From Lepisosteus oculatus (Eukaryota > Chordata > Actinopteri > Semionotiformes > Lepisosteidae), in assembly GCF_040954835.1 (NCBI RefSeq), contig NC_090696.1, positions 72,601,722 to 72,665,721 of the forward strand: a stretch of DNA of 64,000 nucleotides, in the 5' to 3' direction. The notes under the pieces are model-generated. The model saw only the letters and a program-made list of their open reading frames with translations. It was not told the DNA's origin and ran no database searches. Made by a program: the position numbers and the translations under genes. Positions 2,755-51,338 of the stretch are shown piece by piece; position 1 is the first letter of the stretch, and each line of letters opens with the position of its first letter.

Positions 2755-5700
2755 ATGACAGCTACCATAATTATTGTTTGCCTGCTGACAGCAGCTTTTG
2801 CTAACCCTGTAAGTATGTTTACTCAGAAAATAAATATATTTTGACTATCGAAACATTTCAAAACTGCTTTTGATATTAACATATATAATGACTGGCTTTT
2901 TTTTCCCCTCTGCTGTGTCAGATTTTAAAAAATAATAACATGGAAGAAAACATCCCAGATACCCACTCGGTGAGTCATTCCTTCTTGCCACCTTTGTATC
3001 TGTTACAGCCACTTACTGACATGTCAGGATGCTTGGATGCATTCCCCTTGATTCTCTAAAAGCAATTAAATGTTCAAAGGTGAATCACAAGCAAAAGATA
3101 AAGTAGGTATGGAGAAGCTTAATGAAATAATTATTTCCTCTTGAACAGAGGGTTGTTTTTTTAGGCTGTAAAAGTAGATTCCGGGACAGAAAGGGTTGTA
3201 ACTCTACCAAAATGTGTATGGGTTACAGGAGTTTTTTCCCCATTGGTCACTGTATGGCCACAACAACACAGGCAAATTCAACTGTCAGGACACAAGAAAG
3301 GTTACTAGTCAGGGAAAACCTATCATGCTTGTCATTCTGCCATTCTGACACTGATGACAGCACTGTATCTTGTCAGTCTTTTTAATGTAAGCTTTATTTT
3401 TGTTAATTTGCCAATTATGTTTTCATTATTTTCACTTTATATACAGTATATTATATAGAGATAAATTACATCTGTAATAAATAAATAATATATAAACTTG
3501 AGATAATATAAACTATAGGCAATATATACATGTACAAAGACATATACCAATCTGGGGTAATAATTCGTGAAATTGTGTTGGTCAAACACAAAAACAGTTC
3601 TGGTCTGTGGGAATCCACACCATATTTATGTCCTTTTTCCTGGGACAGGAAATACAGACCTTTTAAGCAGAATCTGGGATTTTCGTGCAGAATCTGCATG
3701 AAAAGTCACAGGAAAAGGGTTTATTGGGAACGCTTTTGGTGGGCTCTGCTCAGTTGAGTTTACTTTTGTTTTGGTGAGGTATGCGATTTCGGCTGCTTGT
3801 ATGCTTATATGGTTGCAGTTGGTAAATGAGCTCCTGGTGGAAGTGTTGTTAGGGATCTAGATTTATAATTTGAGGGTTGTGGGCTCAAATCATAGGTGAA
3901 GGCACTGCTGTTGTACTATAGAGCAAGGCTCCTTCAATAAAGTTGTAGCAGGGCATTATCAACAACTCTTAACATACCAAAGAGCATGCAGAAAAAGTTC
4001 ATTATTTCAAAGATATTAAGGAATAAAACTGGCATTATTTGACATGTTTTCTCTCTTTTCTGGTGTATGTCTAGTTTCACCTGGGACTCACAACTGATTT
4101 ACAGTAATTATTTAGCTGATGCTTTGGATATAAAGAAAGTATGCAGCAGCAGCAATTGATGTACAGTAGCAATAGGCCTATACTTTTTTCCATGTGTTTT
4201 GGAAGTGTTTAGGGAAGAAAAACATTCCAAGCTATGGGAACATGGGGAAAACACTGTAAGGCGTGCAATAAGCAAATGCAAGAAATGAGCATATGATGTG
4301 TACTGTACCTCCTTTAAGGAAAAGAACACAATTACTGTAATTAAAATTAAATTTATATGAATTAAATCATTGCAAAAAGAAGGACAAAAGTTGAAAAAGT
4401 TAAATTAAAAAACTGAGCTGGAATGGGAATTCAACAATGAATCAATTTACTTTTCATAATATAGGTATTTGGTGTACTTTTTTTCTGTTTCTCACTATTT
4501 GTAGGCTGCCAACAGCACTTCCATGGAAACATATATGTCGGTAAACAAGGTAATTTGAAATATCTATCTAAATTAATTTTACTCCCTAATTGGAGATGAG
4601 GAAATCAGCCCTTGCATTAAAATTGATCACATTGTATTCCTGTAAAATAAAAAACTCTGCTAATAATACAAAACTATAAAAGCAACAACTGAATTGAACT
4701 GAACAAAACCTGTCTATATTTAAGTAGGATTACTTTTGACATTCTGCTGTATATATATTTTATTTTCACAGACCCTTGCATACAGTTCATCTTCATACCA
4801 GGTAAATGTTTTTTAAATATCACCATGAATATTTTCTGCAGGTAGAAATTAATAATGTAGTTTTTAGAGGTTTAATGTTTTATTTGAGAGCACAGATTTA
4901 ATTTAACATTTTTTGTCTTCTATCTTTCTAGACATCTGAGGAAAGTGATACTTCAGAAGACAAGGTAAATAAACCCTTTAAATTTAGATATTAATGCTAA
5001 TATTAAGTTTTTTATTGCTCAAAAACATTATTTACATGAACAGCCTATTACTTGTGATAATTAAAATAGATCATAATATTTGTCATGTCAGACTTTTAAG
5101 ATGTTAAACATCAAACCTCATTGTCATTGATGTTTCAATCTGTTTTGGTTGCAGAGCTCTTTAGAAAATACATCAGAAGACACGGTAATTTCACAAACAA
5201 AAAGATTTTATTTGAAAGTAAGGGCCTACGTAGATTAACATCTCAAAGACAGTGGCAATAATGAAAGCTTCCTATATTTTGATGAGCTCATTCTCCTGTA
5301 TCCTAAATTAAGGCCAAAGCAGTAGGCAGAGCATGTGTTGTGCAGGTGGTTATTTCCTTATCAGCCATAAACTACCTTCCATTATCCCTCCACCCCTCCC
5401 AAAACACCAGCAATTTCTTCCTGACAGGAACTTCCCGTGGCTACAAAAATGAGGCCACAGTGCTAGCAAATTATCTTAGTCTTTCTAATAGTATATAATG
5501 AAGGAAATTATTATACAAGGCATTATATAAGGTGATAAGAAAACAAAAATAAAATTCCCCAATTACTTTTACTTTGCAATTTACTTACATTAAATAATTG
5601 CAGAAACATCAAGCATTCCATTGCCATTCTGTTCATCAGTATTTGTTAATCTCATAAATTACTTATAAGTACTACTATGTACTAATAAGTAAAACGTAAA

Positions 5701-8700
5701 TATAGAGTTTTGCAAAAGTATTCACCCACTGCACATTTTCCACATTTTGTTGCTGTTTGTGTTTGCAGTCATGGCATTTTCAAATAGGACTTCATATTTA
5801 GAATCTGCAAAACCCACCCCTGTCTAATTAAGTTACACAAACTAGATTTTTAATGAAAATTTGAAGATTAGGTGCAATTTGTAATTGCATACATTATCAA
5901 TCCCTTTGCTACGATAACACAATATCAGTTCAGATGTGAGAAATTAGTTTGAAAGAAAAGATAATTATTGTAACATTTTCACAAAGGACTTTCTATAGGG
6001 GATGAATACTAATGCAATCAGTAATTTGACTTAGACTTTGCATATCTTTTTAGCATGTTTTGCTAACATTCTGCATCTTTCACCTGTAACAAGTTTGATC
6101 ATTGCTATTTTGAAAATATAAAACAAATTGTGATATTATTGAGAGGGGAAGAATATTTACAGTGTCGCTTATTTACGTCATATGAGATGATTTAGTTAAG
6201 CTTTGTTATAATTTATTACCTTTCTTTGCAGTCTTCTGAAGAAAGCAGTTCACTGGAAGACACGGTAATAGTACCAATCCGATATATTCAAACTGTTTTT
6301 CAAGAAAAAAGATTCGCTCTTTTAAAAGACATTTTAACCTTTTGACACACAATTACACAAAGGCTTTGTAATGCTGCTCCTCTAATGACAAAATATATAA
6401 CTTCAAATTTGTATAGTACACAACTATCTAAAAATCATAACAAATATAAGAAAAGGAGGCCATAAAGTCAGTCTAGCTTAACCAATCAACTGATTGGTGT
6501 AAACATCTCACCCAGCTGTTTACTTGAAAAGAAAAATGGCATCAGCTTCAAAAACATGGCTGAACAGCTTGTTCCCGACTCCCACAACGCTATACTCCAT
6601 GTAAAATACTGCCTCCTGTTTTCTACTTTACTTCAATTTAGTTTCCAGTGTCTCCTCTGTTTGTGTTTTACAATTTTGAGAGTTCACAGGTGGATGTGCA
6701 TAATTTCCATTGTTTAGGAATAGCTTTCTGAGGTGTCATTGTCTTCTGATTTTATCCCTTGCAGACCTCTGAAGAAGACAGTACTTCTGAAGACATGGTA
6801 ATTATAGTTAAATGAAAATCCACTTCACAATGAACACTTTACTATATTTTCACCCTGAAGGAATTATCAAAAGCAAGTTCTGCATGTAAGCTTCTGTAGT
6901 TGCTGCAGGAAAAGGTGTTAGTGGTCCAATGGTGACACTCTCCCCTCAGGACCAGAATTCCCAAACTATAAGCATGCTTTGCTGTAGAAGGTGCAATCCT
7001 TCAGATATCAAAACAGGCCTCCAATTATCTGGCTGTTAACAATCCTGTGGCACTGTTCTTAAAAGCAGGGACATCGACAATGTGGCCCTGGCTAAATTCC
7101 ACTTGGGATCTGGATTTCATTAAATGTCTCCCTGAGCTCAGCTGGAGAAGTAATTTCTCAATTTTGCATCTGTTCTACTGTGTAGTGGGGCTGATGGTGA
7201 CAAGAGGTAGACAAAGCAGGTTCCCTCTTCTATCTACAATACTCTGGGATTTTTTTAATTATGGGGGTAGTTTTATGTTAGGTGAACAGGCTGTTTAATT
7301 TGGTAAGTGAGAACATATCTTTACAGAAAGTGACCCAGCCAAACAATAACAGTATTTTTAAGCCACAGTTAGCAGTCCATGCGGAGAAAATAATGAAAAT
7401 AATGTGCAGCTATCTAGTTTAAATGTTTCCAAGTCTAATTTATTTGAGATACAAAAAGATCAAACAATTTTTTTATAATGAAGTGTAATCAACTCTAAAA
7501 TAAATTATGGACATCAATGTATAAGAAATCACGCATTAATAATTAGTAGAATTTAGTCTAACCTAGCTGTTCAACTTTTCAAGTGCAGCTGTATAGAAAG
7601 TAAATTTGATGATCATTTATTCTTTGACACAAATGGGAAAAGCTTGTTAGGGACTTATTTTGTTGTTTATGTGTTAATTGCACTTTTAAGTTGAGGTATG
7701 TTTACTAAAACTAGGATTTACAAGTGACAAGCCACATAAAACATTCAACATTCAGTTTCTAATATATTATACTGCCTTTCCAATGTACTGAAAATGTGGT
7801 TGCAGTATTAAAGTTTGTGAAAAAAAAGAAAACATTTGCTGGTGTCTACCATCAGATGGCAGTGTTGCTGGTTTGGAGGCAATGGAAAGACCTTACAATA
7901 GAACACAACAATGCAGTGTTTTTTTAAGGCTTGGAGAAAGTAAGATAAAAATACATACAATATGCAATCACTAGGAAAAAGTGAATGGAAATTTTAAAAA
8001 AATATGCACTACGGTGTGTGTTTCCTGAACTGTATTAAAAACATAAGCATTCATAAGATATTTCAAAGACATTGATTCCAATATAATAGAAAGCACATCC
8101 ATAAGAGTACAGAAACATCTGTCCTATTATTAACAAGAACAAAGTAAGAAAACCTACTGTGTGTCACTCCCAACAATGGCTTTGACAAACCAGATAATCG
8201 TGTTTCATCAGGTTACTAATTCACTTATATAATGGAACAAAAACAGAATTCTTACATCTTACAACTTAAATATGACCCTTCCCATTACATATTTTGCAGA
8301 CGTCTGAAGAAGACAGCTCATTGGACAGGGTGAGAAAAAAATTGTTTTAACTCTACTTTGGACTAATTGAAATGTTTCAACTGTTATATGAACTGTGATA
8401 CAGTATGTGGAGTGGCATTAAAAACTCAACAAATTAGTACTCAATACACAATGCTACATATTTAATGCCTCTCATTATATTTTGCTTAAATGTTACCAGT
8501 AATAAGTATTACTGAAATTAATTATATTCATGTCAGGTAAATGACATACAAAATGTTTTCTACAGGACAAAAATAATCCGTACTTATTTGAATGATCAAA
8601 TCCCTTCTGTACCCTCATTATTACAGACTTCTGAAACAAGCGAGAGTACATCAGAAGACAAGGTTAGTTTTTACAAAAATTGATTTATCAAAAATAAGTA

Positions 8701-11082
8701 ACATGCCTTTTTTTCCATTTTAATTGTGGAAATAGCATAGTCTGCATAGCAACACTGAAAAATTCTGTGTATCTTCACAGACCTCTGAAGAAAGGGACAG
8801 GTTCTTTGGTGACAAGGTAACCCATACTCGACTTCACATACTGTACCTTATTCAGGATCTCAATCCCATTTTTCAAGGAATCAAAATATTGTAAATGCAG
8901 TATTGACACTTACAGTCTAAATGACATCTTTATCTTTACAGACATCTGAAGAGATTTATGATACATCTGAAAGCAGGGTAAGGCATCAACTTTCTTAAAT
9001 TCTTGAAACACATGACATCAATGTTTTTAATGGCCTCTGGCTGGCTCAGCCAGTAATATTGCCCACATGGAGAACAGGCTGAACTCTGGGACCCAGCCTG
9101 CAGTGGCTGTTTGCCACAAGTGGCAATGCTCTCTCTGCTCTCTGGCAAGCAGTGACCCATGTGAGTCCTGCAGGGCTGTGATGACATCAGCGAATGGTTC
9201 CCGTCTCGTCCAATCAGAAACTAACCTCCCTTGTCAGACGCCATGGAGCTTGCAATGTGTTAGGAGTGTATGGGTGGATGGATAGGAGGAGCATGTCTGC
9301 ATAATCAAAGTCTCCATGTGCAGAGGCACAGTTGTGAGCAGAGATGTACTCTGAAGCATGTCTGCTGTGCTTTTATCTCAGCATTTATCTCAGCGATCTC
9401 AGCAAAGCTGGGCCTGGTCGTCAATACTAGGATGGGAAATCAGGTTGCTGCCATAAATTGTGCTGATAGATCCATCAGCTATACGTTTTGCCCTGATCCA
9501 TGATTTCCAAACTTAGGCCTCAGTGTGGTGACTGGGGACACCATACTGATGGTGCTGCCATTGAACACATTAAATGTTCGATTGAGATCCTGACTGTTTG
9601 ATTATTACAGATTCCCCTGGCATTGTTCGTAGGGCTGTTAACCCTTCTGTCCAGGCTGTAATCCACTCTGGGCCTCCACAATCGGCCTTCCTAAAGCAGC
9701 CCCTCTGTTGAGTTGGCAAAACAGTTTGTCACTTCCCCACCTGATCAGTTGTGTAGTGGGTCTGCTGGCACAGGCATAACAGCTGATGCTTTCCAGCCAG
9801 GGGGTGCTTTACATCAGTGGTACTGTATATGAAGTGAGTCACCTCCCATAAGTAAAGTGCTTTGCTACTGAAGTGCAATTAATTAGATTTGGAAAACGTA
9901 ACTAAAAAAACACGTTTTATTCCTTTGAATCTGCAGAGTGATGAGAATGGAAATACCAGAGATGACAGTCGAGACAGCGACGAGGTTATCAGAAGGGTAC
10001 GTTTCATTTCCTGTATATTATGTGTCCGTTTAATTAAAAAACAAGTCTATTTTCTTCCTCTTCCTCATTTCATTAGGAACTACACTAAATTAAAGAACAT
10101 GGGAGCATAAGAAGGTCTGCAAATGAGAGGAATCATCAGCCCATTTAGGTCGTTTCATTCTTTGTAGCCAGTTGATCCAAGGAACTCATACTGAAATGTG
10201 AAAGAAAAAAGTGGACGTATCAGCGTACATGGCTGGGTGTCTTGTTCAAGACTTTGTGTAAAGGAAACTCCCTCCCGTTCTCAATTTTAAATGCACTTCC
10301 ATATCCTTTCCATTTCTGTCATGATGCTGTATGGCGTTTGCTCTCTTAAAGTCTTTCCTATTTGTGTATAACTATACCCAACAACAACGTATCCCCTTCA
10401 ATTCGACTCGACTAGAAAGTATTTTACATGTACTTCAGCTAAATGGTTTTATTACTGTCAAATAAAACTCGAAATCAAATGCAAATAATCTGCACAGGGG
10501 GCAAAGCCATGTCCTATAGGAATACAAAAACAGTCACTTCAATTGATATTTTAATTCTTGATGTTCAAATAACTATTTTAAAAACATATGTGTACTATTC
10601 ACATCCTACAGAGGTTGCAGAACAAACACAATAACATTTATTTCTGTGATAAACTTTGTTCACTGGAAGGTGGTATTGATTTTAAGGAATGTCTTGGAAT
10701 TTTGTATCACCAGAACAGGGTAAGAGTTTTTAAGATCAAACTCAAAAGCGATGAAGACAGCACCTACAGCCACAGCACGGAGCACAACACGAGCGACCGG
10801 AGAGACATCAGCGGGGAAGACGGTAACGAGGAGGAAGAGGAAAAAGATGGGGAGGATTATAACAGTGAGAACGGCCACAGCACGGAAAGCGACGGTAACG
10901 ACAGCAACGCCGACAAAGGCGGCTACAAAAAAGGAGAAAAGTGCGATAAAGACGGGGACAGCGACGACTGCGACGAGGAAAGCGACGAGTATTCCTTCGG
11001 CGACATCGGAGACGACACCTATGAGCTAAATGATGATTTGCTCATGCTTGACGATGGGCAAATCGAAGCGCACTCCTGGTGA
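2755..11082 (+). CDS. Gene A: acidic SCPP with an array of micro-exons (scpp1 candidate)
   Basis: This is a secreted acidic phosphoprotein of the SCPP family, read from about 14 coding exons joined in phase 0. The exons are 2755-2808 (signal peptide, MTATIIIVCLLTAAFANP), 2922-2969, 4505-4549, 4772-4801, 4932-4964, 5155-5184, 6232-6264, 6765-6797, 8300-8329, 8627-8662, 8781-8816, 8942-8977 and 9937-9996, plus a last acidic exon ending in TGA at 11082. Each has AG/GT borders. The eight exons from 4932 to 8977 encode 10-12 residue cassettes such as TSEESDTSEDK, TSEEDSTSEDM and TSEEIYDTSESR, which are rich in Ser-x-Glu sites for the FAM20C kinase. The acceptor of the last exon is uncertain: 10612, 10714 and 10735 are all phase 0. 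The last exon is Asp/Glu/Ser-rich and ends near YELNDDLLMLDDG. The total is about 285-325 residues. A poly(A) signal lies at 11879. The family call is firm. The scpp1 identity is a guess from position next to gene B. Confidence 0.78.
5699..6012. mobile_element. Tc1-type MITE-like remnant in an intron of gene A
   Basis: The left end (GCAAAAGTATTCACCCACTG, 5711-5730) and the right end near 5990-6010 (CTATAGGGGATGAATACTAA) resemble the inverted termini of fish Tc1-like elements. About 300 bp lies between them and no transposase segment can be recognised. It probably is an internally deleted, non-autonomous copy. Confidence 0.5.
6440..6620 (-). mobile_element. LINE 3'-end fragment (CR1/L2-like)
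   Basis: The stretch carries the conserved 3'-end wording of the fish LINE also seen at 15330 and 25610: 'TAAGAAAAGGAGGCCAT', 'GGCATCAGCTTCAAAAACATGGCTGAACAGCTTGTTCC'-type sequence and a following CCCACAACG segment. It is short and diverged. It sits in the intron between the exons at 6232 and 6765 of gene A. Confidence 0.5.
6890..7300 (+). repeat. Diverged SINE-like interspersed repeat
   Basis: Segments such as CCTTCAGATATCAAAACAGG, TGGCACTGTTCTTAAAAGCA and GTGGCCCTGGCTAAATTCC follow the same order as in the fish repeat seen in the opposite direction at 26478. A 252-nt open frame here (7047-7298) looks accidental. It lies in the intron between the 6765 and 8300 exons of gene A. Confidence 0.4.
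9025..9860. repeat. GC-richer island in a gene A intron, probably an old repeat
   Basis: This block is clearly richer in G+C than the surrounding intron and has sharp edges near 9025 and 9860. It carries three short open frames, none with a recognisable domain, and no SCPP-like exon. I could not assign it to a family. An insertion of an interspersed element is the simplest explanation. Confidence 0.3.
10085..10330 (-). mobile_element. LINE 3'-end fragment (CR1/L2-like)
   Basis: Sequence such as GAACATGGGAGCATAAGAAGG and the following 'AATCATCAGCCCATTTAGG' and 'CAAGGAACTCATACTG' is a diverged copy of the minus-strand 3' end of the LINE seen at 25610. It occupies the last intron of gene A. Confidence 0.4.
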
Positions 11083-18419: not shown

Positions 18420-18543
18420 CCTGAGGCCCTTTAAAAAACCACCAATCAAGAAGAGCTCGCAGTCCATAGAAGGAGACCTGCCTGCTCCTGGAAACAGCTT
18501 TCTCAGAGCTGAAGTGCCCATAGCCACTAAGCAAAACTGTAAG
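18420..18543 (+). promoter_or_regulatory. Candidate promoter and 5' UTR exon of gene B
   Basis: A TATA-like CTTTAAAAAACC stretch at 18428-18440 precedes a stretch ending in ...AACTGTAAG with a strong donor (gtaagg) at 18544. The distance of about 480 bp to the signal-peptide exon of gene B is typical of an SCPP untranslated exon 1. The exact transcription start cannot be told from sequence. Confidence 0.35.
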
Positions 18544-19021: not shown

Positions 19022-22000
19022 ATGAGCAGGATCATGAAGACCATTTTGCTTCTATTTTGCTTGTTAGGGATGGGCTACACACTTCCAGTAAGTTATCGCT
19101 GTACTTAAGTGTAATAATACCTGTTTAATTTAGAATTCAAAAGCAGACATTTCAGATCTAATTGCATCTCATGGCCTTTTTATTTTCTAGATTCCCCAAG
19201 AAGATGTCATTCTTGTAAGTACAGTAAATCATTAATTTAATGAAATAGCAAGTCTTACAAGTATAGGTCAGCTAAGATCTGTCAGTATTCAAATGTATTC
19301 TATTTATACTGGGAAAGTTTCTCCACATCCAGGAAACAGATAGCTTGATTAGCTGAAAAAGTCTATTGGTTTTTGTATAGCATATATACATGCTATGCTT
19401 TTATTTGTTGTTTATAAATAATCATAAATGTCAGATTAAATTTAATATACTTTAAACAATGATAGAGCCAAAGGCAGACTGGATTCATTGACAGAGCTCA
19501 CAGAAAATAGCAATACAATACTCATAATGTTAAGTCTTGAAAAGTCTTTGCAAAAATCCTTCTGTTTCTGTTATTCAGAAGGCATTGATGCAACTTTTCC
19601 AACACTTAATTTAAGACAGAAGTAGTACCAGAGACTGGCAAATTACTAACAAAGTACCCATCATTGAAATGGTCGAGAAAACTGAATCAAGTAATTATAG
19701 ATCAATAAGTCTGATTTCTATTAAGAAAATAATTATTAGAAATACACCATAAGACCACCTTTGTGAAAATTATATCATAATAGTCAACACAGATTAAGAA
19801 GAGTTAAGTCTTGCCTAACTATCTTGTTAGAGTTTTTTAACAAGCTACAACAGCAATGGATAAACATTATATATAGAGTATATGATGTGGCATATTTACA
19901 GTACATTTTCAGAAGGCTTTTTAAGAATTTAAGAATTAATGATTAATTCTTAAATTTGTGGTGGTAAGCATTCAGAAAAATGTGTGTTTGACTTGAAGAC
20001 GGGTTATTAAATAACCAGTTTCAGTACAGACGAAGGGTGAATGCATAAATTTAGCGATTATAATTAGTGGAGTACCACAGGGATCAGCTGTAGGACCAGT
20101 GCTCTTCTTAATTTATTTCAATTATCTAAATTCTGGTATAGTTAATAAACCAGTTTGCAGATGATAAATAAGGAGGGCAAGCCAACACTGTAGAAGCAGC
20201 AAAATTATTATTTTTTTAAATTAGATAAAATTCAAGACTGAAAACACCTGGCAGATGACATTTAATGTAGAACAGAGCAGGGTTTTGATTGCAAGTAGTA
20301 AAAAACTATAAATACAAAATGGGATCTGATCTAGAATATACTTCATATGAAAAAAGACTTAGTAGTTTATGTTGACACACCATCTAGAAAATATGGGAAA
20401 GCAATTAAACAGGCAAAAGGATAGGACTTATAGGTAAAAGCACAGAATTTAAATAAAGGGATTTCTACAGTATGTTCTATTTTTATAATACACTAGTATG
20501 TCCCTCATTTAGAATATTGTTTATTGTTTTAGTCACATCAGTGGAGAAAAAATATTGCTGAGCTGGAAGCCATCTACACAAGATACATTGTGGGCCTTAA
20601 GGGAATATCTTACACTGACAGGCTCAAGGAGACCCACTTTTTGTAGTCTTGAACAAAGACTATGAGGGCACCTGATTCAAGTATTCAAAGTCCTCAAAAA
20701 AGTTTGAGGATTTTTGAGAAAAGAGAAAGTTGACCATTTATTGTGTACAGATTTCTTTAGAATGAACAGGGAAACATTAACCATGGAGCACAAGTGGAAA
20801 CTACACAAAAGTACATGTGAAAATGTAGTAAAACTGTGTTTAAGCAAAACCAAAGGCTTCTTTAAAGAAAAGGGCGAATTAGATCTTTGGATCAATTAAT
20901 CGCTGCAGAGCTTTCTGGATTGGTCAAGTGTCCTTGTGATCTTTCTTATGTTCTCCTGTAGCAGTAAATAGAGAGGAACTGTTTGATATTCTGACAACAG
21001 ACTGTAAATCTTCCATATGCATCAGTATCAGTTTTATCTTGATTGCAGTTGGATTCAGTAATTGACATCCTGTATACTTTGCTTTCCAGCTCTTTGCAAT
21101 AGTAGTTTTTTTATTTTCTGTTTGTTTCCTCCCAGGCAAGTGGTAAAAACAGCAGTGCCATAGAAGAAGAGGTAAGAATGTTGTGTAGATATTGCATTAT
21201 TGGTCAAATTAATTACCACACATTTATGCATTATGCATTGTCCTTTAAACAACAGTAAATCAAGGTTTTCATTCTTTGGTGTACCCATCGTGCCCATTTA
21301 AATATTACTATATATATATATCAATGTGCCGATTTACAGTTTAGAAGTGACAACCACTCCATTCTGAATTCCATAGCTGCTATGTGAACTAGTGACTAGT
21401 TAACTAGCTTAAACTAGTGAGGTCTGTAGCAAACGAGAGATTATCCCATAGTCTAGAAGTAAGGGCTGGCAGGTTAAGCTGAGAAGACACGGCTGCTCTC
21501 TTCCTGTAGGGGTACACCAGTCCATTAGCATCCATTCAGAACTTAGAATATTCCCTATCTGCTGTTCATTCTATACCATCATGCTCTATCATTGCAGATT
21601 CCAGGCTTTTGAAAGAGTTTTAAGTGGTACAGTCCTTTTGGAGACATATATCACTTCTGGGGTTAATGGGCTTGACTTAGCCCTAGGTCAGGTATACTTG
21701 ATGGTCACTGGTTTGCACATTACAAATTGAGTTCTATCGTTTTCATGTGCCCATAGCATTGTATAATTACATCAGAACTGTGATATAAAACCTAGGTTTG
21801 CCGGAACACATTTAGATTGTTACATGCTCAAATAATTATTTGAAAATACAGTCCTTATTTTTCACTGTCAGTGAAATATATTTTGAAGACCGCTTGACCA
21901 TCAAATATACCAAAACCGGAAAGGTATAATTAGATTTATATATAGAAATCATTAAATGAATAGGGCATAAAGGATATGCGATATGATTGAATATATGATG

Positions 22001-23563
22001 AGTTAAAACTAACACAGGTCTGCTATTATTTTGTTTTCAACTTAGTTCCACTTCAATGGGAATATCACTCTTCTCAGCCTGGATAGAGATGTTTCTGGGA
22101 GAGGAAACGGGGATTCTAAAAGCAGTTCTGAGTCAAAAAGCAGTTCAGAGGAGGATTCTGACAGCAGTTCTGAGGAGCAGTCTGGTGACAATGGTGGTTC
22201 AGGAGACACTTTGAGTATTAGAGACGCTGGTTTATTTGAAAACGGTACAACGACTTATGTCAGTTACATATTCAGAGACTTCAGTGGTGATGACAGCTAT
22301 GGTGAAGATAAAGTAAATCATGAAATCAGAGTTCCTGTCATAGAGGGAAATGTACAGAACACGGCTGCCATTAGAAATCTCACAAATGAAGTACGTGGTT
22401 TTGAAAGCACTAGGGCAGATACAAGAGATGGAAATCTTAAATATTTTAGTGTTCAGAAAAGTGTAGAAGCCCAAGATAATGAAGTGCTCTTATTTGCAAA
22501 GCCTGGGGAACGTGAAATGAGTAAGACACCCTATGAAAAACGACATAGCGATGATAAAGCAGAGAATGCTGCTGATCTATTCACCTTCCAAGAAACAATA
22601 GACAACTATGACTTTGACGACGAAGGCATGCAGGGAGATGATCCCAGTGGTTCTTCATCTCACACTAGTGCCAATAAAAGTTCCAGAGAATCAAAAGACA
22701 CCAGTGACTCTTGCAAGTCCAGTGATTCTAGTGACTCCAGTGATTCTAGTTCTTCATGTAGCTCAAGTGACTCCAGTGATTCCAGCTCTTCATGTAGCTC
22801 AAGTGACTCCAGTGATTCCAGTGACTCTAGTGATTCCAGTTCTTCATGTAGCTCAAGTGACTCCAGTGATTCCAGTGACTCTAGTGATTCCAGTTCTTCA
22901 TGTAGCTCAAGTGACTCCAGTGATTCCAGTGACTCTAGTGATTCCAGTGATTCTAGTGATTCCAGTTCGTGTAGCTCAAGTGACTCCAGTGATTCTAGTG
23001 ACTCTAGTGACTCCAGTGATTCTAGTGATTCCAGTTCGTGTAGCTCAAGTGACTCCAGTGATTCTAGTGACTCCAGTGACTCCAGTGATTCTAGTTCTTC
23101 ATGTAGCTCAAGTGACTCCAGTGACTCTAGTGACTCTAGTGATTCCAGTTCCTCATGTAGCTCAAGTGACTCTAGTGACTCTAGTGATTCCAGTTCTTCA
23201 TGTAGCTCAAGTGACTCCAGTGATTCCAGTGATTCTAGTTCGTGTAGCTCAAGTGACTCCAGTGATTCTAGTGACTCTAGTGATTCCAGCTCTTCATGTA
23301 GCTCAAGCGACTCCAGTGACTCCAGTGATTCTAGTGACTCCAGTGATTCCAGTTCGTGTAGCTCAAGTGACTCTAGTGACTCCAGTGATTCCAGTGACTC
23401 CAGTGACTCCAGTGATTCCAGTGATTCCAGTGACTCATGTGGCTCAAGTGACTCCAGTGACTCCAGTGACTCTGACTCCTCAGACTCCAGTGACTCATGC
23501 AACACCTCCAATCACTCAGATAATGGCTCTGATCATAACAGTAGCAGTCAGGAGAAGAAATAA
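19022..23563 (+). CDS. dsppl1: Gene B: DSPP-like SCPP with Ser-Ser-Asp repeat domain
   Basis: This is a dentin sialophosphoprotein-like secreted protein. Coding exons are 19022-19087 (signal peptide; the inner start at 19034 gives the family-typical [18 protein letters not shown]), 19191-19214, 21136-21171 and the long last exon 22046-23563. All joins are phase 0 and the total is about 547 residues. The last exon begins with a mixed-composition, DSP-like part of about 190 residues holding three N-glycosylation sequons (NIT, NGT, NLT) and a Ser-Ser-Glu cluster. Then comes [13 protein letters not shown], with MQGDDP at 22628-22645. In mammalian DSPP the same motif is the site cut by BMP1/tolloid between Gly and Asp. 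Roughly 270 residues of Ser-Ser-Asp repeat follow, like dentin phosphoprotein, which binds calcium and nucleates apatite. A cysteine recurs about every 14-26 residues in the repeat, which is unusual. No RGD was seen. A poly(A) signal is at 23845. The symbol follows the published gar naming as I recall it. Confidence 0.88.
19640..20965 (+). mobile_element. Decayed LINE (CR1/L2/Rex1 type) in intron 3 of gene B
   Basis: Reverse-transcriptase landmarks appear in order. AATTATAGATCAATAAGTCT reads NYRSISL, at about 19695. TCAGAAGGCTTTTTAAG near 19910 reads like FQKAF. GTGGAGTACCACAGGGATCA near 20067 reads GVPQGS and is followed by [25 protein letters not shown] lies near 20157. Further on come the CPSFRIL-type and SLEQRL-type segments and a 3' end like TTTCTTATGTTCT (20941-20954). 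Stops and frameshifts interrupt every part, so it is dead. The 5' end is missing. Confidence 0.8.
22713..23500 (+). repeat. Ser-Ser-Asp coding minisatellite of gene B
   Basis: Near-perfect repeats of AGT-GA(C/T)-(TCC/TCT/AGT) codons, interrupted twelve times by a TGTAGCTCAAGTGAC anchor that encodes Cys-Ser-Ser-Ser-Asp. Anchor spacing varies, as expected from unequal exchange or replication slippage. Long open frames on the other strand and in the shifted plus frame across this block are consequences of the period-3 repeat, not genes. Confidence 0.9.
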
Positions 23564-23844
23564 ACACCATAATCTTGAAGGATCATTGAAATAAAAAAGA
23601 AATACATGGGTCTTTCAATCACAGATCTTGTAATTTAAGTATTGCTGTCAAAGATATTTAGTTTTTTACTATTTTTGACACAAAATAGAAATATTTAGAT
23701 ACAAGGTTGTGTAGTATTATGGTTTATTGAGGTATTGATTATGAGAGCAAAGGAGCTTAGGTATAAATATTGTATTATAATGTATGGTTCATTGTCAATG
23801 TCCATTTTGTGGAATATGTAAAAATTGTTAAGTATAGTATGTTA

Positions 23845-32988: not shown

Positions 32989-35900
32989 ATGAAGATTGCC
33001 CTGTTGTTCATATGTTTCTTGGCAGTAACCCTTGCTTTACCAGTAAGTATATTTTGGAGATAAAAAATATATTGTATTCTTTGACAATATTATGCACTGA
33101 TAGCAAACTAAATAACTTGAGATATATATTTTAATACTGTAACTTGAAACTGTTTTTAATATTAAAACACACATCGTCCACCAATATAAACTGCATATTT
33201 ATCTGCTTCTTTATTATTTAGGTACAAAGGAAACGAGTAGCCAGGTCTGACAGCTCACAGGAAAGAGGGGTAAAAAATTATACTTTTTAATTAAAGGAAA
33301 CAATAATTGTGATGAGAATTACAATGTCAGATACAAATACATTTGTTACAGATATATCACAATATGTGCTTATGCAGGGAGTCACCAACAGTTCAAATTG
33401 CTATTTTACTGTATTTTATTCTAATTAAAAGGAACCAATTTCCACTTTATAAATGTACAGTCCTAACCTTTTACTTTTTTGCATGGTGTGTAAAGTACTA
33501 ATAACTTGTTGATTAAAAGTACTGGTGTAGTCTCTTGAACGTAATAGGATAATAATCTTTTACTGGAATTAAAATGTCCATTCCACTGAGTTTAACTTAT
33601 GCTCATAAGTGCAACCTGAACTCTTAAAAAAAACCAACACAATAAGTACAGTTTCCCCAAGGATAGAAGTTATTTTCTTCTCTCGCTCTGGTGTCCTGTT
33701 CTGCAGAGCGACTCCAGCGAGTCAAGCAATGAAGACCGAGACACCAGTGAGGAGTCTGAAAACGAAGAGGACAATGGAGGAGAGGAAGAGGGGGAGGACG
33801 ACAATGGGGAAGAGGAAGATGGAGGAGAGGACAATGGAGGAGAGGAAGAGGAGGAGGACGACAATGGGGAAGAGGAAGATGGAGGCGAGGACAATGGAGG
33901 AGTGGAAGAGGGGGAGGACGACAACGGGGAAGAGGAAGATCGAGGAGAGGACAATGGAGAAGAGGAGGAGGAGGACGACAATGGGGAAGAGGAGGAAGAA
34001 GATGGAGAGGATGACAACGACGAAGAAGAGGAAGATGGGGAAGAAGACTGTGCGGAAACTAACAATGGGGAGGAAGGTGAAGAAGAGCCTGGTGTCTCTG
34101 AAAAGAGTGGAGTGAAGGTAAAATTTCTGCTAGTGCCGTCTCCAGTAGGGCCTCTACCTAATGGATGATGGTTTAGCACAATACCTCGCCAGTGACACGG
34201 ATGGATTAACCATGATTGGTAACATTAAGATACAAATGACCACAATGTGATCTCAGTGGATGTGGATTTATCTGCTCTGCTGCCCGTTTCGGCCTTTACA
34301 TTGTATTCTGCCATCCACCCATTTCCTCATGCCTCCTTCCAAGTTCAGGGCGGCAGGGGAGCTGGAGCCTATCGTGGCAAGCAGCAGGCGCAAGGCAGGG
34401 TACACCCTGGGTGGGAAACTAGTCCATCGCAGGGCAGACACATGGACACAGACATGCACTAGCCCAGTTCTCCCAAAAGCCAGTTAACCTGGAAGAGAGC
34501 CACACGAACATGGGGAGAACATAACTCCACACAAACAACACCCCAGGTTAGGATTTTACATGTATGTTTCTGTGTACATTTACAGTACGCGTTACACTCC
34601 GCTAAAATGAAAATAATTGGAAATGTGCCGATTCAACAAATTATCTTTATTTTTATGATCAAATCTAGGTGTTTTATTAACCACAATTGCTATTATAAAG
34701 TTATACCAACATGCATTACATGAAAAGAAAAACACGCTGAATGTTTTGCACATTTGGTCTAACATATGTTTTACTTTTGGGTGTAATTTTCTGTGTTTGT
34801 CTGTAAGTACATTAGTTTAATCAGAAAATTGCATTTATCATTATTGGATTACATACATTTTAAAACACTGAATTTTACACAATAGGATAAGCATGTGAAG
34901 TCTATTACAAGATTTTAAGAGGATAAAACAGTATGCATGGAGAAAATGATTTTAAAACATATTTTATATGTTTACCACACAATAACTGAGCCTTCTGTTG
35001 ATGTTTCAGCTTATTAACTTTCAGTATATACATCTTTATATTGTGCAAGAGAGTGTCTCTCCACTGAATGGAATTTTTTTTGTGTGGGATTTCATCATAT
35101 TCAAATTAAAAATAAATTAGTAGTCTTAAATTATCACAATCTATGATAATTTAAAGTCAATTTTCTCCAACCATTTTCTCATGTTAATAGTGACTGTTCC
35201 CACCCACACTGGTTATCATGTGGATGTTGACTCCACTGCTGCATAGTGTGCCATTAATCCACATTAATTTTCACTATAGTTTAAGGTCACTATTTTGCTA
35301 GCCTAATTGGATTGGTCCTAATACCACACTTTTTTTTACAGGCACTGAAAAGGCAATACGGACATTGAAAGGCCTTTGTTTTATTTACAGATAAAATTAT
35401 GATGGACATACAGTACACACTTATTCATGAAAAACTGTTACACCTGAAAAGCATGTTACACCTAAAGCATTTTGTTGGGTATTTTTTCTTAGACAGTTTC
35501 TTAGACAGCAATTAGTACTTCAACAGTAATTGTGTGAGTACAAAAAAAAAAAGTTGCTCAATAATTTACATTTATGGTGTCAGAATGCTTGGACTATATA
35601 TTAGGTGTTACAAGTTATAGAGTATAATATTTGATGCATGTAACACTACAATGACAGAATTGAACTGCAAACTAGTAGTAACTGAATAACTGAATTCCAC
35701 AATATGTAGTAAATCTATAGAAATTAGAATGATAAAATGTTCAAAATTATGAAAAAAAAACAAATTTAGCATGTTCTGAAACTGCAAATCCTACGTCCCA
35801 AATGCAGAAGAAAGTAACACCTGAGTATCAGATTTTTAAAAAAGGAAATTCGATATGAAACAGTCTGAGTTTTTGGTTTAATAACTTTACCATCAACAGA

Positions 35901-36917
35901 AGTTAGTGTCTATCGGGTTATTAATGCTCCATTAAATATGTACTCAGCTACTGCAGGTTACTAAGGATTTGTAAATCCAACCCCTAAGGTGCTGCCACAA
36001 AGTGTATTTGCAGAGTGAGGTGGTGATGCTGTGTGTGAGGTCTTCCTAGTTAATATTTATTAAGTCCTGTTTCACAGGCTCCAAAACATACTTGTACAAT
36101 ATATTCTGCTGAATGAAAATTCTGCATTCTTTATACTTCTTCACAGGGTAATGGAGATGAGGATGGCGACAATGGAGATGAAGACAACGGGGAAGATGAA
36201 GATGTGATCAGTGGCTGCAATGGCTATGATGAGACTGGAAATGGCATCACCAGAAATGGAGAGGGAGAGGGGGATGGCGAAGGGGCTGAAAACGGCGAAG
36301 ACGGAGCCGAAGCTGATGGGGACGAAGAAGCAGAGGAGGAGGAGGAGGAGGGAGAGGAGGAGGAGGAGGAGGATGCCGAGGGCGATGAAGACGAAACCTC
36401 CGAAACGGTGGACTATGACGGCGCTGAAAACGGTGAAGACGAAGGCGACGCGGACCCCGGCACTGCAGGAGAGGGAGAGGACAACGAGGAAGGCAATGGG
36501 GAAGGAGGAGAAGGCGACGATGAGGAAGAGGGTGAAGAAGAGCAAGAAGAAGAGGGAGAAGAAACTGGCGATAACGGGGATGGAAAGGGCAGTGAAGACT
36601 CCGGCAATGCTGGACGTGGAGATTCTGATCATGAAGAAGACAACGAAGAACAGGAGAATGGGGACACAGAGGAAGAGTCTGATAACGGGGGAGAAGAACA
36701 CACGATGTATACTGAAGAGGGCCCAGGAGATGACAGCAATCACAATGACATTGAAGAAGAGTACGACAGCGAAGACAACAGCGATAGTGAGCAGGAATAT
36801 TACGAGACGAGGCAGCACGAAAATGCTATTAAAGAGAATTCCGAACAAACTGAGGAATACGGATCTGAAGAACACGGGGATTACAAAAGCCACGAAAATA
36901 ATGGAGATGACGAATGA
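32989..36917 (+). CDS. Gene C: acidic RGD-containing SIBLING, DMP1-like
   Basis: This is a secreted, extremely acidic matrix protein of about 427 residues. Exons are 32989-33042 (MKIALLFICFLAVTLALP), 33222-33269 (VQRKRVARSDSSQERG), 33707-34117 and 36147-36917, all phase 0. Exon 4 starts SDSSESSNEDRDTSEESENE and then has about four 20-residue Glu/Asp/Gly/Asn repeats. The last exon is Glu/Asp/Gly-rich, holds the integrin motif GRGDS (RGD at 36615-36623), and ends with a Tyr-containing tail. The N terminus recalls mammalian DMP1: signal peptide ending ALP, then V-x-R, a 16-residue exon and a Ser-Ser-Glu-Ser-Ser cluster. It lacks the MQxDDP cut site of DMP1, and its poly-Glu runs and Tyr-bearing tail also recall IBSP. 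Family and secretion are firm. DMP1 rather than IBSP is inferred from the N terminus and gene order. A poly(A) signal is at 37430. Confidence 0.85.
33767..34050 (+). repeat. 60-bp coding minisatellite in gene C
   Basis: About four to five tandem units of 20 codons (pattern EDNGGEEEGEDDNGEEEDGG), the later ones degenerate. It would expand and shrink in 60-bp steps without breaking frame. Shifted-frame and minus-strand open frames here are shadows. Confidence 0.8.
34305..34555 (-). mobile_element. SINE, minus strand, in intron 4 of gene C
   Basis: CCATCCACCCATTTCCTCAT, GGGAGCTGGAGCCTATCGTG, GGGTACACCCTGGGTGGGAA and ACATGGGGAGAACATAACTCC-type sequence are the reverse complement of the fish tRNA-derived SINE. 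The tRNA-like head is not preserved. Confidence 0.8.
34556..36146. other. Remainder of intron 4 of gene C
   Basis: AT-rich intronic sequence with no exon-like segment and no repeat that I can name. Confidence 0.4.
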
Positions 36918-41361: not shown

Positions 41362-43133
41362 ATGAAGTCAGTGATTCTGCTACTTTGCTTTGTGAGTGTA
41401 GCTTTGGCTATGAAGGTAAGTACGGTTATGAAAATCACAGATACATCTCCACTCTCTTAGCATGTAGCATTTTGCTATAATCAACACAATAATGCAATGT
41501 GTGTTTTGATCAAAAAGCTAAAAATGTTTTGTTTCTTTGTTTAGGCATTTCACTATCCCTACAAAAGACAAATTTCATCAGGTTGCATCGATGAACGTGG
41601 GGTAAAGTGTTGACATTACTCTTGTTATTCTATGTTACCTAAATCTGCAAAACCTCTAACACTGCTTTTTCTAAAGCACTAATTTCTAAACCACTGGTCA
41701 AGTCCTGGATTCTTAATTGCTGGCTGATTTCAATTTTTAAAACTAAGGCATACTTCAAAACTTGCTTTTATCTCATACAAGTCTGATTGGGATTTGTAAC
41801 TGCTAGCAGCCCTGTACAAATTTCTGTGTTTCAGAATTTCTCTCGCTCCGGTGTGTTTTCTCAGATTTAGCTAATCTAACCTGTTCTTCATAACTTCATT
41901 ACCTATTAACAGCTTTTAAGCATGGACAGAAATAAGGGAACTATTTTTTCCTGAATAAATTGAAGGCACAGTCTATAAAGATCCGCAGGCCAAAGCTGTG
42001 CTTTTTTAAAACCAAGGAGTGATTGCAGTTTATTAAATATGTTAGAGCAACAAGGGACATCAACTGATTTGCCACATGCTAATTTGCCAGGAAAATGGGA
42101 CAAACCTCGTCATAGAATAGATCGTGATATTTTGCACCACACACATCACATCTCTCTGCCTTCCCCAGTGTCCACTTTTTAGTCATAACCAACACGATAT
42201 ATGATCAATGTGACCTGGATCATGATGCCAATTCATATGCCTTAAACTGCACATTGTATTGTTTTACATGTATAGGGCTGCCACAGTCCCCCAATACCAG
42301 GATATAACATTTATAAAGGAACACAATCCCATGGGTTAAGAAAGATTTGCACATGCACTGATGATTCTGTTTTTTCTCTTCAGATGTATTACAGGACTCA
42401 CAAGTTACAAAATGGATACTATGTTTTCAAGTATTTCCACGTCTACCCCCCAGGACATCCGCGATATGTGAGGGTAATTTTTCTCTTGTGTGTATGTTTG
42501 TCTCTGTCGCCCAATTGTGGCCAGTAAGCCACTTGTCTTGCACGATTAAAAAAAAAACATACAACCATCTTCAGAGGAGCAATAAGCAAAATACCTAAGA
42601 ATCCTGTAATGAATGCATGTAATATTGATATCATTAGAAGGAATTCAATTGTTTTCATTCCAGTTTGTTGCTATTTTATTTGAGAAGGCAATTAAAGCAT
42701 ATATGTTTATATATTCACACAAGGGCAGCACAGTGTTCTGACACTGGACTACTGTCTAAAGATTTGTGGGTTCAAGTCGCCCCCTGTTGACTCCAGCGCT
42801 TTTCACCCGATCGCTCCAGTGCACCCGGATGCATGAGAGGGGTCCCCCTACTGTTGGGGCTCAGCCCAGCCATGCCCAATCATACCACCCGGGGGAAGAG
42901 TTACTCTCCTTCGCCCTCACACCGTGAAAAACGGGCAGAACAGCTGACTGCATGGACTGACCTTGCCTTAAACATTTACACAGGGGCGCCGTTACATGGG
43001 TGATGAAGACCAGCGAGAGCCCGAAAGTGAAGAGGATGGGAATTCTAACGGGGATGCTGACATCGCTGAGAAGGCTGAAGTGGGTCAAGGCGGCAAGCAG
43101 CCAAATGAGGTTCTGAGCGATGCCAAAAACTAA
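41362..43133 (+). CDS. Gene D: short SCPP with Tyr-rich exon (IBSP/MEPE-like)
   Basis: This secreted protein of 116 residues has coding exons 41362-41415 (MKSVILLLCFVSVALAMK), 41545-41601 (AFHYPYKRQISSGCIDERG), 42384-42473 and 42984-43133, all phase 0. The third coding exon encodes 30 residues starting MYYRTHK and containing GYYVFKYFHVYPPGH. The aromatic run resembles the IBSP exon with YYLYKHAYFYPH. The last exon is acidic (EPESEEDGNSNGDAD) and holds candidate Ser-x-Glu phosphosites. The mature chain has a single Cys in CIDERG, which recalls CVEEQ near the N terminus of MEPE. No RGD or C-terminal ASARM-type acidic Ser cluster is present. It is much shorter than mammalian IBSP or MEPE (over 300 residues). 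Gene E is its tandem paralogue. A poly(A) signal is at 43352. Membership of the SCPP family is well supported, the individual orthology is not. Confidence 0.82.
42720..42900 (+). mobile_element. Possible SINE head in the last intron of gene D
   Basis: GGGCAGCACAGTGTTCTGAC followed 30 bp later by GTGGGTTCAAGTC has the A-box/B-box spacing of a tRNA-derived SINE. The body that follows differs from the other SINEs in the window and its end is unclear. Confidence 0.4.
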
Positions 43134-46776: not shown

Positions 46777-49605
46777 ATGAAGTCTTTACTGATCTGCTTT
46801 TTCCTTGTGAGTGCAGCTTCTGCCATGATAGTAAGTCTGATGTTTTCTTTAAGACACAATTTATAGAAATTATTTTCAGCGACATGCAATACTTATTTCA
46901 TAATAATCAAAACCTATACAATCACAAAAGTCATGACTTTAAGAACAATCAATTTAAATACGCAATATTACTTATGCATTTTACAAAAACAAAAAACAAA
47001 AACAAATACAAAAACAATTAAATTCTGAAGTCAGAATTTTTTAATACTCAGAATTTCTCTTTTCAGCTTTATGTTAGAACTAAAACATGGGTATTTGTAT
47101 TTTAAATACACAACAGTTATCTTTCTGGATGCTGTCATATTTCCTAAAAAAAGACACTCAGCATAGCATGTTTTAAACCACAAAGTAAGAGAAGTACCAC
47201 ATTATCACATTTCTGATAACGCAGTGACTGCAAAAGACTGAAGAAGAATAAAAGATTTCCAAAGCTTTTTCTATGTGTTAAAGAATCTATTTACTTCTAG
47301 TATGAATACTTCTAAAAATCACCTAAATGTTTTTGCTATTGCTGTTAAGGGAAAAAGTAATGTGTTAAGCCATGGTCTCTAAGACATTTAAGAAGGAATA
47401 TGTTAAATTACTACAGTATATATTCAAAGCTTTCCCATCAAAGAAACAAATACTCTGTGTTTTGTTAAAATAATGATAAAATACAAGATATGACCTCATA
47501 ACATTTAATTTAGGTTTGAAAAAGCTATCATTCTTTCTATAGCTTAAGATAAAATGTTATAGCTTTAAGAAAAAACATATTAGGTAAATAAATGTTTTCC
47601 TGTTAAATGGTTTTATCTGTATTTAGGGGTATTTGGGAAATAAAATTGTCTTATGGAAAATGATATTTTTTGACATAGTCAACTGTATCTATTATTCAGT
47701 TCAAAAGAAACCATAGCTCTGCTTCTTTCACTGAACTATCTACAAGCATCTGTATTACACGTTGACATAAGAGTGAAAACATTTGCAAACCAAAAGTGGA
47801 ATCCAGATGATCGAAATCCTACTGAAATGTTATAGTAGAGGTTTGAAAGGATATTGGAGATGTAGTCAAGAAAATGTTTTATCACAGGGGATGTACATAA
47901 ATTAATACATTGAATAGACCATAACGTTTGTGACAAATGTTTTCTTTTCAGTACTTGATATTACCTATTTGTTTCGTCTTAGGCAATAACCAACTTAAGT
48001 CATGCCTACTACAGGATGAAGGTTTCCTATAAGAGAGAAGCTTGGAAGGCCAAACCTGTTTAAATGTAAAAATTGTCTCTCTCTAAATGTATTCCATTTG
48101 TTTCCTGTTTCTTTTTAAATTTCATTAGATGTTCCGCCACCCCTTCCGCCGACCTGGGTCAAGATGCTTTGAAGAACAAGGGGTAAAAAAAAGTTCTTGA
48201 TATTTAATTGTGCTTACTGGGCTCAAGCCAATTTCACAACACCACTGTTAAAAAAAACCCTGTCTGCGAATTTGCATGTGCAAAGGTGATGTCTGAATGC
48301 ACAAACACTGTACACAGGTTCACTGGTTTAGCCACATTAGAAAGATACATCGCTGCAGTCTTCACTGTATCACTGGAATTCCAGCAGTGTAAACAGACAG
48401 CAATTGTGACTGACACTGACCAACTCAGCAATAACCCAGGACAGACTGCGATTGCTCCTACACTGCAACAGGTGTAGCTCATAACCTGCTTAGATGTCAT
48501 AAAAGACCGGGTTTCATTAATCAGAGGATTTTGAGCACAGGCACCCTCTCAGTAGATTTGAGTCATTCTTTGGTCATGGCTAGGCATCGGTATCGGTGAT
48601 AATGTTTTCAATAACATTACTAAGTAAAAACAACGTAGTTCTAGGCTTGACACCAGCTCCACATCAGACAATTTACATCTAAAAGAATTAAGACTGATTT
48701 GAAAGAGATGTATTAAATTGCTTCGGTGGGATGCTTATTTGAAGACTGAGTGTTTTTGAAGGACTGAGTGTAATTATTCTTTTTTACCACTTAAATATAT
48801 GGTATTGTGAAGATATTATAATATCTTACGTTTCCACTTCAATATCAAGGACTTGTAATAGAAATTGTAAGTTAATACATTTCTATACTTTCTTTAAAAA
48901 ATGGTTTATCTATGAGGAAAAGACAGGAAAGAGACCTGCAACTTTTAAAACAATGTCACTTTTCTATCATTTTGTTATTTTTATCAATCAGTCCCTTTTC
49001 ATTTTTACTGTTCTTCAGATGTACTACAGAGGCCGGATGTACCAAGACGGGCACTATGTTTACAAATATCTCTACGTGTTTCCTCCAGGACAACATCCAA
49101 AATACCACGTATGTTACTTTTTAAATATTGCATTTTCTATAATTGACGGATGTATTTGGTCGTCCTAATAAGTGATACATTTCAATGTAAAGTATTTTGG
49201 CAATTCAGACCAAACAAGTAGGAAAATATGCTACTATACAGGTAAACCAAAAATGTTAAAAGTTAAAGACAAATGTTAACTTATGTGAAAAACAGAAGCC
49301 TCAACATGTTTAAAACGGCATTATACACTATTTAACAAATCTTTCCTGTATTTTACTAGACTTAACGTGTTTTTTACGACGTAACTCATGATAACCAGTA
49401 AATAAATTCTGCTATATAAGAAGCACACTTCACCTGCATAAATGACACTGTTATCAGCTGTTTTGGGGTATCTGATTTTTATTATTTGATATCTACACAG
49501 GGATTAAACCGTTACCATCCTGTTGTGTTAGCGGACAAAGAAATGGCGGAGGAAAACGAAGAAATTGTGACTCAACAACAGGAAGGTCAAGAAAATGCTT
49601 CCTGA
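46777..49605 (+). CDS. Gene E: short SCPP, tandem paralogue of gene D
   Basis: This secreted protein has 100 residues, or 113 if an extra exon is used. Sure coding exons are 46777-46830 (MKSLLICFFLVSAASAMI), 48129-48182 (MFRHPFRRPGSRCFEEQG), 49019-49108 and 49501-49605, all phase 0. A further phase-0 segment, 47983-48021 (AITNLSHAYYRMK), has a good acceptor but a weak donor (gtttcc), and gene D has no equivalent, so it may be optional or false. The 30-residue exon begins MYYRGRMYQDGHYVYKYLY and continues VFPPGQHPKYH; it aligns without gaps to that of gene D. The lone Cys (CFEEQG) again resembles MEPE CVEEQ. The last exon is mildly acidic and Gln-rich (EENEEIVTQQQEGQENAS). In mammalian order this slot would be IBSP or MEPE. 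A poly(A) signal is at 49726. Confidence 0.82.
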
Positions 49606-49799: not shown

Positions 49800-51009
49800 A
49801 ATTATTTTTCGTATTAACTCTAGTTTCATTTTTATACTCGCCTTACACCCTGTTTATAACACATAACTCATAAATATACTCAAGGCAACGATAACCAATC
49901 AAACACGTGTCACTGCGAACAATTGCCCAATCACAGTCTCTGTTCTTATTCTTGTTAGTTTTGTCCAATCGGAGCCCGCGATGCTGCCAAGTGGAATGCT
50001 GTGGCTTTAGCCAATCACGTGTCGGTGAGCTTTTTGCCACCGCTGTTCAAAATAGCAGCAAGAGTTGCTTTTGTTTCCTCCAACAGTTTTCCTACATATA
50101 TATTTTTATTTAGATGGCATTTCCAATTAATGACACCCCCACCCCGTTCTCCGCAGTTTTTTATTCAAAATTAAAAGCATTCACCTATGAAAAACAAACG
50201 TAAAACCAACAGTTAACACGCACTTATTAACAAACTTCTAAGTTCCTCTGCATATGTTTCTGATACATTCCTCAAACTTCGCAAGAAAAATACAGAATGT
50301 CTTCTTGAGCATACCACTAAAAAACATCGTTAACACCATGCAATACAAGAACCCGAGGTAAGCGTTTTAGTGCTGCCTCCGATGTGAGTAATATTAAAAC
50401 TGAAAACACAACGCATGCAGAAAATGTCTGCAACTCAAAATGCTTAGCCAGCATTAACAAAAACACACAGCGCTTGGTAAAAATGCTCTGAAGCTGCAAA
50501 TCTTTGTTTATTCCGGGCAGTGCATTCCGAAAAAGTGACTCTATAAGAAACGAGAAATGCTGAACTCTAACCACGTTGTTGCCAATACTAAATAAGTAGT
50601 ACTTGTGCTTACCATGTGGATAAACTCGTACAGGGACTAGAGTACACTGGACATCTTTCCGCCGAATAAAATCCAGGATTTGAATATGTTTTTAATAACA
50701 GCATATTCAATACGATGAATGCCTTAAAAGATACTTATTCGTAAAAGAAAGAACAATACTATAACAAAATGCGGTCTTTCAATTGTAAACGCTGAAATGA
50801 TTACTTGCTCAAGATGTGATAGATCATCCTTAAATTTTGGAAAACTGTTGCTCGTCCGTGATTTCACAACAATAGCTGAATCGACGCCCTAAGCGGTAAA
50901 ACCGGCCCTTCTTTCGCGTAAAGCAGAGAATGGGAACGAGGGAACACGGTATGATATCACGTCCGATTTACAAGGTCTTACAATTAAATCCTAGGAATAA
51001 AAAGTAATG
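49800..51009. other. Spacer; older copy of the tRNA-flanking unit
   Basis: No gene is supported. The segment around 50467-50530 (GCGCTTGGTAAAAATGCTCTG, then CCGGGCAGTGCATTCCG) is a diverged copy of flanking sequence found again at 51980-52035 and 53450-53515. The duplicated unit of the tRNA array thus extends left of the first tRNA gene. Confidence 0.5.
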
Positions 51010-51082
51010 CGCCCAACGTGGGGCTCGAACCCACGACCCTGAGATTAAGAGTCTCATGCTCTACCGACTGAGCTAGCCGGGC
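51010..51082 (-). tRNA. tRNA-Lys (CUU), copy 1
   Basis: The minus strand reads GCCCGGCTAGCTCAGTCGG at the 5' end, with anticodon loop CTCTTAA, T-loop TTCGAGC and a 7-bp acceptor stem (GCCCGGC/GTTGGGC). Anticodon CTT gives lysine. A TTTTT Pol III terminator follows within 10 nt. The 73 nt include the discriminator G. Confidence 0.97.
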
Positions 51083-51338
51083 ATCTGCGTCACTTCCCCC
51101 TGCGCGTTTCCTCAATCACACTCCCACTCTTGCCTCCTGCGTCGTTCATCATTGAATAGGAAATTACGCAATACAGCTACTGTTCCACAAAAAGGACAGC
51201 CGTTTTACACTGACGTCACTCCTTCGGAGGGAATCCAGACTGTGTAAAGCACACTCTGTATGGTTCCGAGTGGCTCTGAATGGTTACACTCAGTTTGGTG
51301 TCTTACTGGGGCTTTCAGGAAGACCTACTTCACAGCTC

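Follow-up and report, generated by a model that had tools for sequence, protein, structure and literature searches.

We analyzed a window of 64,000 nucleotides (C1:72601722-72665721 of a 1.2-Gb assembly) together with 100 kb of each flank, 264 kb in all; positions are counted from the first letter of the window and are negative upstream of it. A single piece of the assembly carries, in this order, sparcl1, a gene denoted here Z, a scpp1-like gene (neighbour A), gene B, which is the main subject of this analysis, and an ibsp-like gene (neighbour C) (Table 1). The gene read as sparcl1 belongs to the SPARC family, has an acidic exon and lies on the minus strand ~39-48 kb before the window; it contains FOLN (1.8e-10), Kazal (8.9e-10) and SPARC calcium-binding (1.4e-17) domains. 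Gene Z follows 12-14 kb before the window. By composition and position, neighbours A and C are candidates for scpp1 and ibsp, respectively.

Several other features surround these genes. Signal-peptide-like exons are found in the flanks at -39174, -51221, -61257, -80266, -89466 and -97807 on the minus strand and at 145829 on the plus strand; the exon at -39174 likely belongs to sparcl1, some of the others perhaps represent P/Q-rich SCPP genes, and those at -80266 and -89466 encode an identical peptide. Two tandem, mutually similar small SCPP-like genes with a MYYR...YPPG.HP-type exon (41362-43133 and 46777-49605) have no Pfam match at E <= 1. A tRNA cluster (51009-57114) consists of five tRNA-Lys(ctt) genes on the minus strand and one tRNA-Ile(aat) gene on the plus strand; Rfam alone lists two longer tRNAs, at 51339-51451 and at 52931-53043, which are probably intron-bearing.

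Table 1. Gene B, its neighbours and the predicted cleavage sites (window positions)
Feature	Position	Strand	Remarks
Gene Z, triplicated site	L010:6935-7018 = window -13065 to -12982		LHGDDP, IHGDDP, MQGDDP, 33 bp apart
Neighbour A, acidic SCPP-like gene	2755..11082	+	many short exons (TSEED... repeats); last exon read from sequence
Gene B, signals upstream of exon 1	18430 (TTTAAAAA), 18442 (CCAAT)	+	read from sequence
Gene B, predicted 5' untranslated exon 1	18450..18543	+	donor AAG/GTAAGG at 3' end; 5' end approximate; read from sequence
Gene B, coding exon	19022..19087	+	20-aa signal peptide, then mature LP; signal cleavage point by eye
Gene B, second in-frame ATG	19034	+	within exon 19022..19087
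Gene B, coding exon	19191..19214	+	IPQEDVIL; predicted
Gene B, coding exon	21136..21171	+	12 aa; predicted
Gene B, last coding exon	22046..23563	+	DSP-like part, cleavage site, Ser-Asp/Cys array and stop codon; predicted
Predicted BMP1/tolloid site	22607..22645	+	13-residue YDFDD..MQGDDP motif, in frame in last exon of gene B
Predicted released phosphophoryn-like chain	22637..23560	+	308 aa: 199 Ser, 69 Asp, 15 Cys
Ser-Asp array	22715..23497	+	9-bp unit AGT-GAY-TCN, Cys blocks
Neighbour C, Glu-rich acidic SCPP-like gene	32989..36917	+	RGD at 36615

Gene order and the predicted structure of gene B

For bichir and gar, a 2026 survey names as acidic genes dmp1, scpp1, dsppl1, ibsp, mepe and spp1 (PMC13367325), and the gene order observed here fits this published set for cluster I, the fish order being that of a listing in the text of the survey; mepe, a member of the set, was not recognised among the genes of the region. 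Given that sparcl1, gene Z, the scpp1-like gene, gene B and the ibsp-like gene are all located on one piece, the order points to the unduplicated cluster of a ray-finned, probably non-teleost, fish and to the identification of gene B as dsppl1; gene Z would occupy the dmp1 position. The dsppl1 gene has been published for ray-finned fishes including bichir, gar and some teleosts (PMC13367325) and for coelacanth and reptiles (PMC4707025) as an acidic SCPP gene listed between scpp1 and ibsp, the place that gene B takes, a likeness of description rather than of sequence. In the green anole, DSPP is described in a comparable place, 5' of IBSP and between DMP1 and IBSP (PMC2803795). Gene B is a gene of a known kind, within which the Cys-studded chain and the triplicated site of gene Z described below are variants.

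Four coding exons are predicted for gene B on the plus strand, all in phase 0 and with GT/AG borders, and the product consists of 547 amino acids. A signal-peptide exon and phase-0 introns, both present in this model, are typical features of SCPP genes (PMC4707025, PMC3039539); for green anole DSPP, in contrast to the four coding exons predicted here, perhaps two have been reported (PMC2803795). The mature N-terminus, LPI, is formed at an exon junction and conforms to the hydrophobic-Pro-hydrophobic ER-exit rule that was defined for DSPP (PMC6097701), where the corresponding residues are IPV. When compared to the 1.2-Gb assembly, the last exon matches only gene B itself; the protein has no match at E <= 10 in the protein database and matches none of the Pfam families. 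It also contains no RGD motif, which is not decisive for membership in DSPPL1/DSPP because RGD is missing in 16 of 35 mammals as well (PMC2803795); the place of a degenerate RGD, RGQ in green anole DSPP (PMC2803795) and RES in gene B, is a weak likeness.

Two additional open frames overlap the last exon. The frame one base off the array (22602-23594, plus strand) runs without a stop for 330 codons and is hydrophobic in composition (V, P, T, L, I, A), a feature shared by mammalian DSPP and resembling the -1 frameshift products described in human DSPP disease. On the minus strand, an open frame of 283 codons with LES/LEL repeats (22660-23511) is probably a side effect of the 9-bp repeat.

A predicted tolloid cleavage site in two neighbouring genes

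The preliminary description of this DNA had drawn attention to a DSPP-type proteolytic motif, and the motif is indeed there: the last exon of the predicted secreted protein encodes it in frame. MQGDDP comprises residues 237-242 of gene B and is encoded at 22628-22645, within the largest and most 3' exon; the scissile Gly-Asp bond is predicted between 22636 and 22637 (Gly239 codon 22634-22636; Asp240 codon from 22637). A cut at this bond had been proposed to leave a chain of about 308 residues, which is the length counted from the present model. The same description had placed the motif directly before the Ser-Ser-Asp domain; the motif does precede the array, but ~25 residues separate DDP from the first SSD, so that "directly" holds only loosely. 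Human DSPP reads YDFDD at the corresponding place, and the site of DMP1 reads MQSDDP.

The site was compared with a pig DSPP peptide, YEFDGKSMQGDDPN, that is cut at G-D by BMP1, MEP1A (meprin alpha) and MEP1B (meprin beta) (PMC3179315). The corresponding 14-mer of gene B has a BLOSUM62 score of 57 and 9/14 identical residues; this score was reached by none of 50,000 shuffles of gene B residues 1-262 (maximum 48), and the next best score among the six frames of the window was 26. The string MQGDDP was obtained in 0 and MQxDD in 64 of the 50,000 shuffles of these residues. When Met-Gln was replaced by Ile-Glu in the test peptide, cleavage by BMP1 and MEP1A stopped but that by MEP1B did not (PMC3179315), and mouse DSPP was no longer cleaved when Ala took the place of the Asp after the cut (as related in PMC3398931); Met-Gln and this Asp, important in mammals, are retained in gene B. 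The site is likely to function as a cleavage site, at which gene B would be cut at Gly-Asp.

The site is not a one-off, because a second copy is present in neighbouring gene Z, where it forms a tandem triplet that is new here. In the 1.2-Gb assembly, ATGCARGGNGAYGAYCC occurs twice, with no occurrence on the reverse strand and none of the reversed control; given a chance expectation of ~0.66 per strand, calculated from the base composition of the 264-kb region, two occurrences alone are not striking. Both, however, are in frame in SCPP-type genes of one cluster, B and Z, which are the only genes in the assembly found to encode exact MQGDDP. The pattern NY[DE]FDD[EK]G..GDDP is common to the two genes, with 10/14 identical residues and none of 50,000 shuffles as good, whereas outside the site there is no detectable similarity between them (score 31; 1721 of 2000 shuffles as good). 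The occurrence of the site in two neighbouring genes suggests that the processing step is very old; probably, the site is older than the B/Z duplication and is not specific to DSPP.

The Ser-Asp array and its cysteines

The chain behind the site contains 62 SSD, that is, a long Ser-Ser-Asp array, in which only two residues are other than Ser, Asp or Cys. The serine codons of this chain are 107 TCN and 92 AGY, so that the AGY-only pattern of mammalian DSPP arrays (PMC2803795) does not hold for gene B. In the array, the third base differs from the modal codon of its class in 98 of 261 codons; this variation, combined with near-invariant residues, suggests constraint on the protein, although the duplicated copies are not independent. 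The array of gene Z is built of a different unit, SDSSSSSSSEEGKG, and the serine codons of its C-terminal chain are 168 AGY and 97 TCN.

The distribution of cysteines in gene B is the reverse of that in mammals. Fifteen Cys, 12 of which sit in SSSCSSS, are spaced 12-27 residues apart in the C-terminal chain, whereas the mature N-terminal chain is free of Cys; mammalian DSPP is described as having a lone Cys in DSP, which links two DSP chains, and an array without Cys except for two in platypus (PMC2803795, PMC4707025, PMC3039539). The green anole array has spaced Arg (PMC2803795) where that of gene B has spaced Cys. Among the published descriptions compared, there is no close counterpart of this Cys-rich array, and a search of the open literature, with the gar and coelacanth papers outside its scope, found no report of a disulfide-cross-linkable phosphophoryn chain. 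If gene B were cut by a tolloid protease, the freed chain would be a polyanion capable of disulfide cross-linking.

Age of the site and of the arrays

Gene B shares with mammalian DSPP the Y[DE]FD..MQGDDP motif in the last exon, the hydrophobic-Pro-hydrophobic start and the SSD array; with green anole DSPP it shares the MQGDD site and mixed TCN/AGY serine codons (PMC2803795). The motif had been regarded initially as DSPP-type, a label that proved too narrow: MQXDD also occurs in published DMP1, most commonly with Ser as X (PMC2803795), and the site is present in gene Z. The motifs SSEE, SGDD and MQXDD, which are listed for lizard DMP1 (PMC2803795), are all found in gene B, at residues 75 and 83, 122, and 237, respectively. 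SSEE and SGDD are short and not rare (2557 and 1697 of 50,000 gene B shuffles); SSEE precedes SGDD in 36 of 50,000 shuffles, the motifs having been picked after the sequence was seen. The DMP1 C-terminus, HNKPXXDXDDNDCQDGY, is missing in genes B and Z, which end otherwise, and a six-frame scan of the 264 kb for pieces of this tail detected only HNKP, at 100950 (plus strand) and 128150 (minus strand), neither in a recognised SCPP gene. The Pfam DMP1 family (PF07263) matches neither gene B nor gene Z and has no match genome-wide at E <= 10; compared with an approximate DMP1 fragment, gene B showed no wider similarity than its shuffles (668 of 2000).

Taken together, the gene order and the site lead us to conclude, with a probability of about 0.8, that gene B represents dsppl1 in a ray-finned fish, probably a non-teleost, and encodes a secreted acidic SCPP that is cut between Gly239 and Asp240, at a site older than the divergence of dmp1 and dsppl1. 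We infer that the product would leave the ER via its Leu-Pro-Ile N-terminus, would be heavily phosphorylated on Ser-rich stretches and, after secretion, would be cut at this bond by a BMP1/tolloid-type astacin protease. The products would be an N-terminal chain of 219 residues, starting at Leu21, and an extremely acidic Ser-Asp-Cys chain of 308 residues, the latter binding calcium and collagen and nucleating mineral. The site would already have existed when dmp1 and dsppl1 separated and would have been retained while the remainder of both proteins drifted beyond recognition; its conservation between species is drawn here from published descriptions.

It appears improbable that the motif is a relic, present but uncut in vivo, or that the protein works in its uncut form. 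Such a reading is compatible with the result of the literature search, which found no experiment on a fish protein, and with the LH or IH that replaces Met-Gln in two of the three gene Z repeats, but one full MQGDDP with its upstream context has been kept in both B and Z, the remainder of which cannot be aligned. The same lack of alignment outside 14 residues, along with the ease with which short-unit arrays are expanded by slippage, could be taken to indicate that an unrelated acidic SCPP separately acquired both a tolloid site and an array of SSD. We consider such convergence very unlikely: the common NY[DE]FDD[EK]G context reaches beyond MQGDDP, the gene order fits, and SSEE, SGDD and MQGDD occur in gene B in the order given for DMP1 in the lizard paper (PMC2803795).

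A further alternative is compatible with the mechanism proposed above and differs only on history, namely that the site is ancestral but the DSP/DPP pair is not, the arrays of fish and lizard dsppl1, of mammalian DSPP and of gene Z (Ser-Glu-Lys) having undergone independent expansions behind a single inherited tolloid site. We give this history roughly even odds. Independent expansions in mammals and reptiles have been proposed by McKnight and Fisher (PMC2803795), and the mixed codons of gene B, unlike those of mammals, imply that its array may have expanded independently; the different unit and codon usage of gene Z are in line with this history. Conversely, fish and lizard both have mixed codons and occupy similar places in the gene order, and the array of gene B sides with that of the lizard, as predicted by its place before ibsp; there could have been one inherited array, with only the mammalian array being new. 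The earlier proposal that the split of a precursor into DSP-like and DPP-like chains predates the separation of ray-finned and lobe-finned fishes seems half right. The site with its upstream context matches mammalian and lizard DSPP and has a second copy in gene Z; because it is not DSPP-specific, it dates tolloid-type cleavage of a common ancestor rather than the DSP/DPP pair. The arrays behind this old site, which is common to gene Z, may be younger, and a DPP-like product may have had more than one origin.

More tentatively, tolloid cleavage at YxFDDxGMQG/DDP might be the trait with which the dmp1/dsppl1 pair originated, predating the duplication, with both outputs remodelled here: the dsppl1 chain with its 15 spaced Cys could form a disulfide-linked phosphorylated gel, and the triplicated site of the neighbouring gene would give alternative cut points. 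As far as compared here, published conservation of DSPP-type processing covers mammals and one lizard; with the same site present in two otherwise unalignable ray-finned neighbours, the age of the site can be tested in gar, bowfin, bichir and coelacanth. The triplicated site of gene Z is a natural test of the residues needed by the protease, and a phosphophoryn studded with Cys would be unusual among polymers of the mineral matrix. The old, constrained part to which these observations point is tolloid cleavage, not the SSD array.
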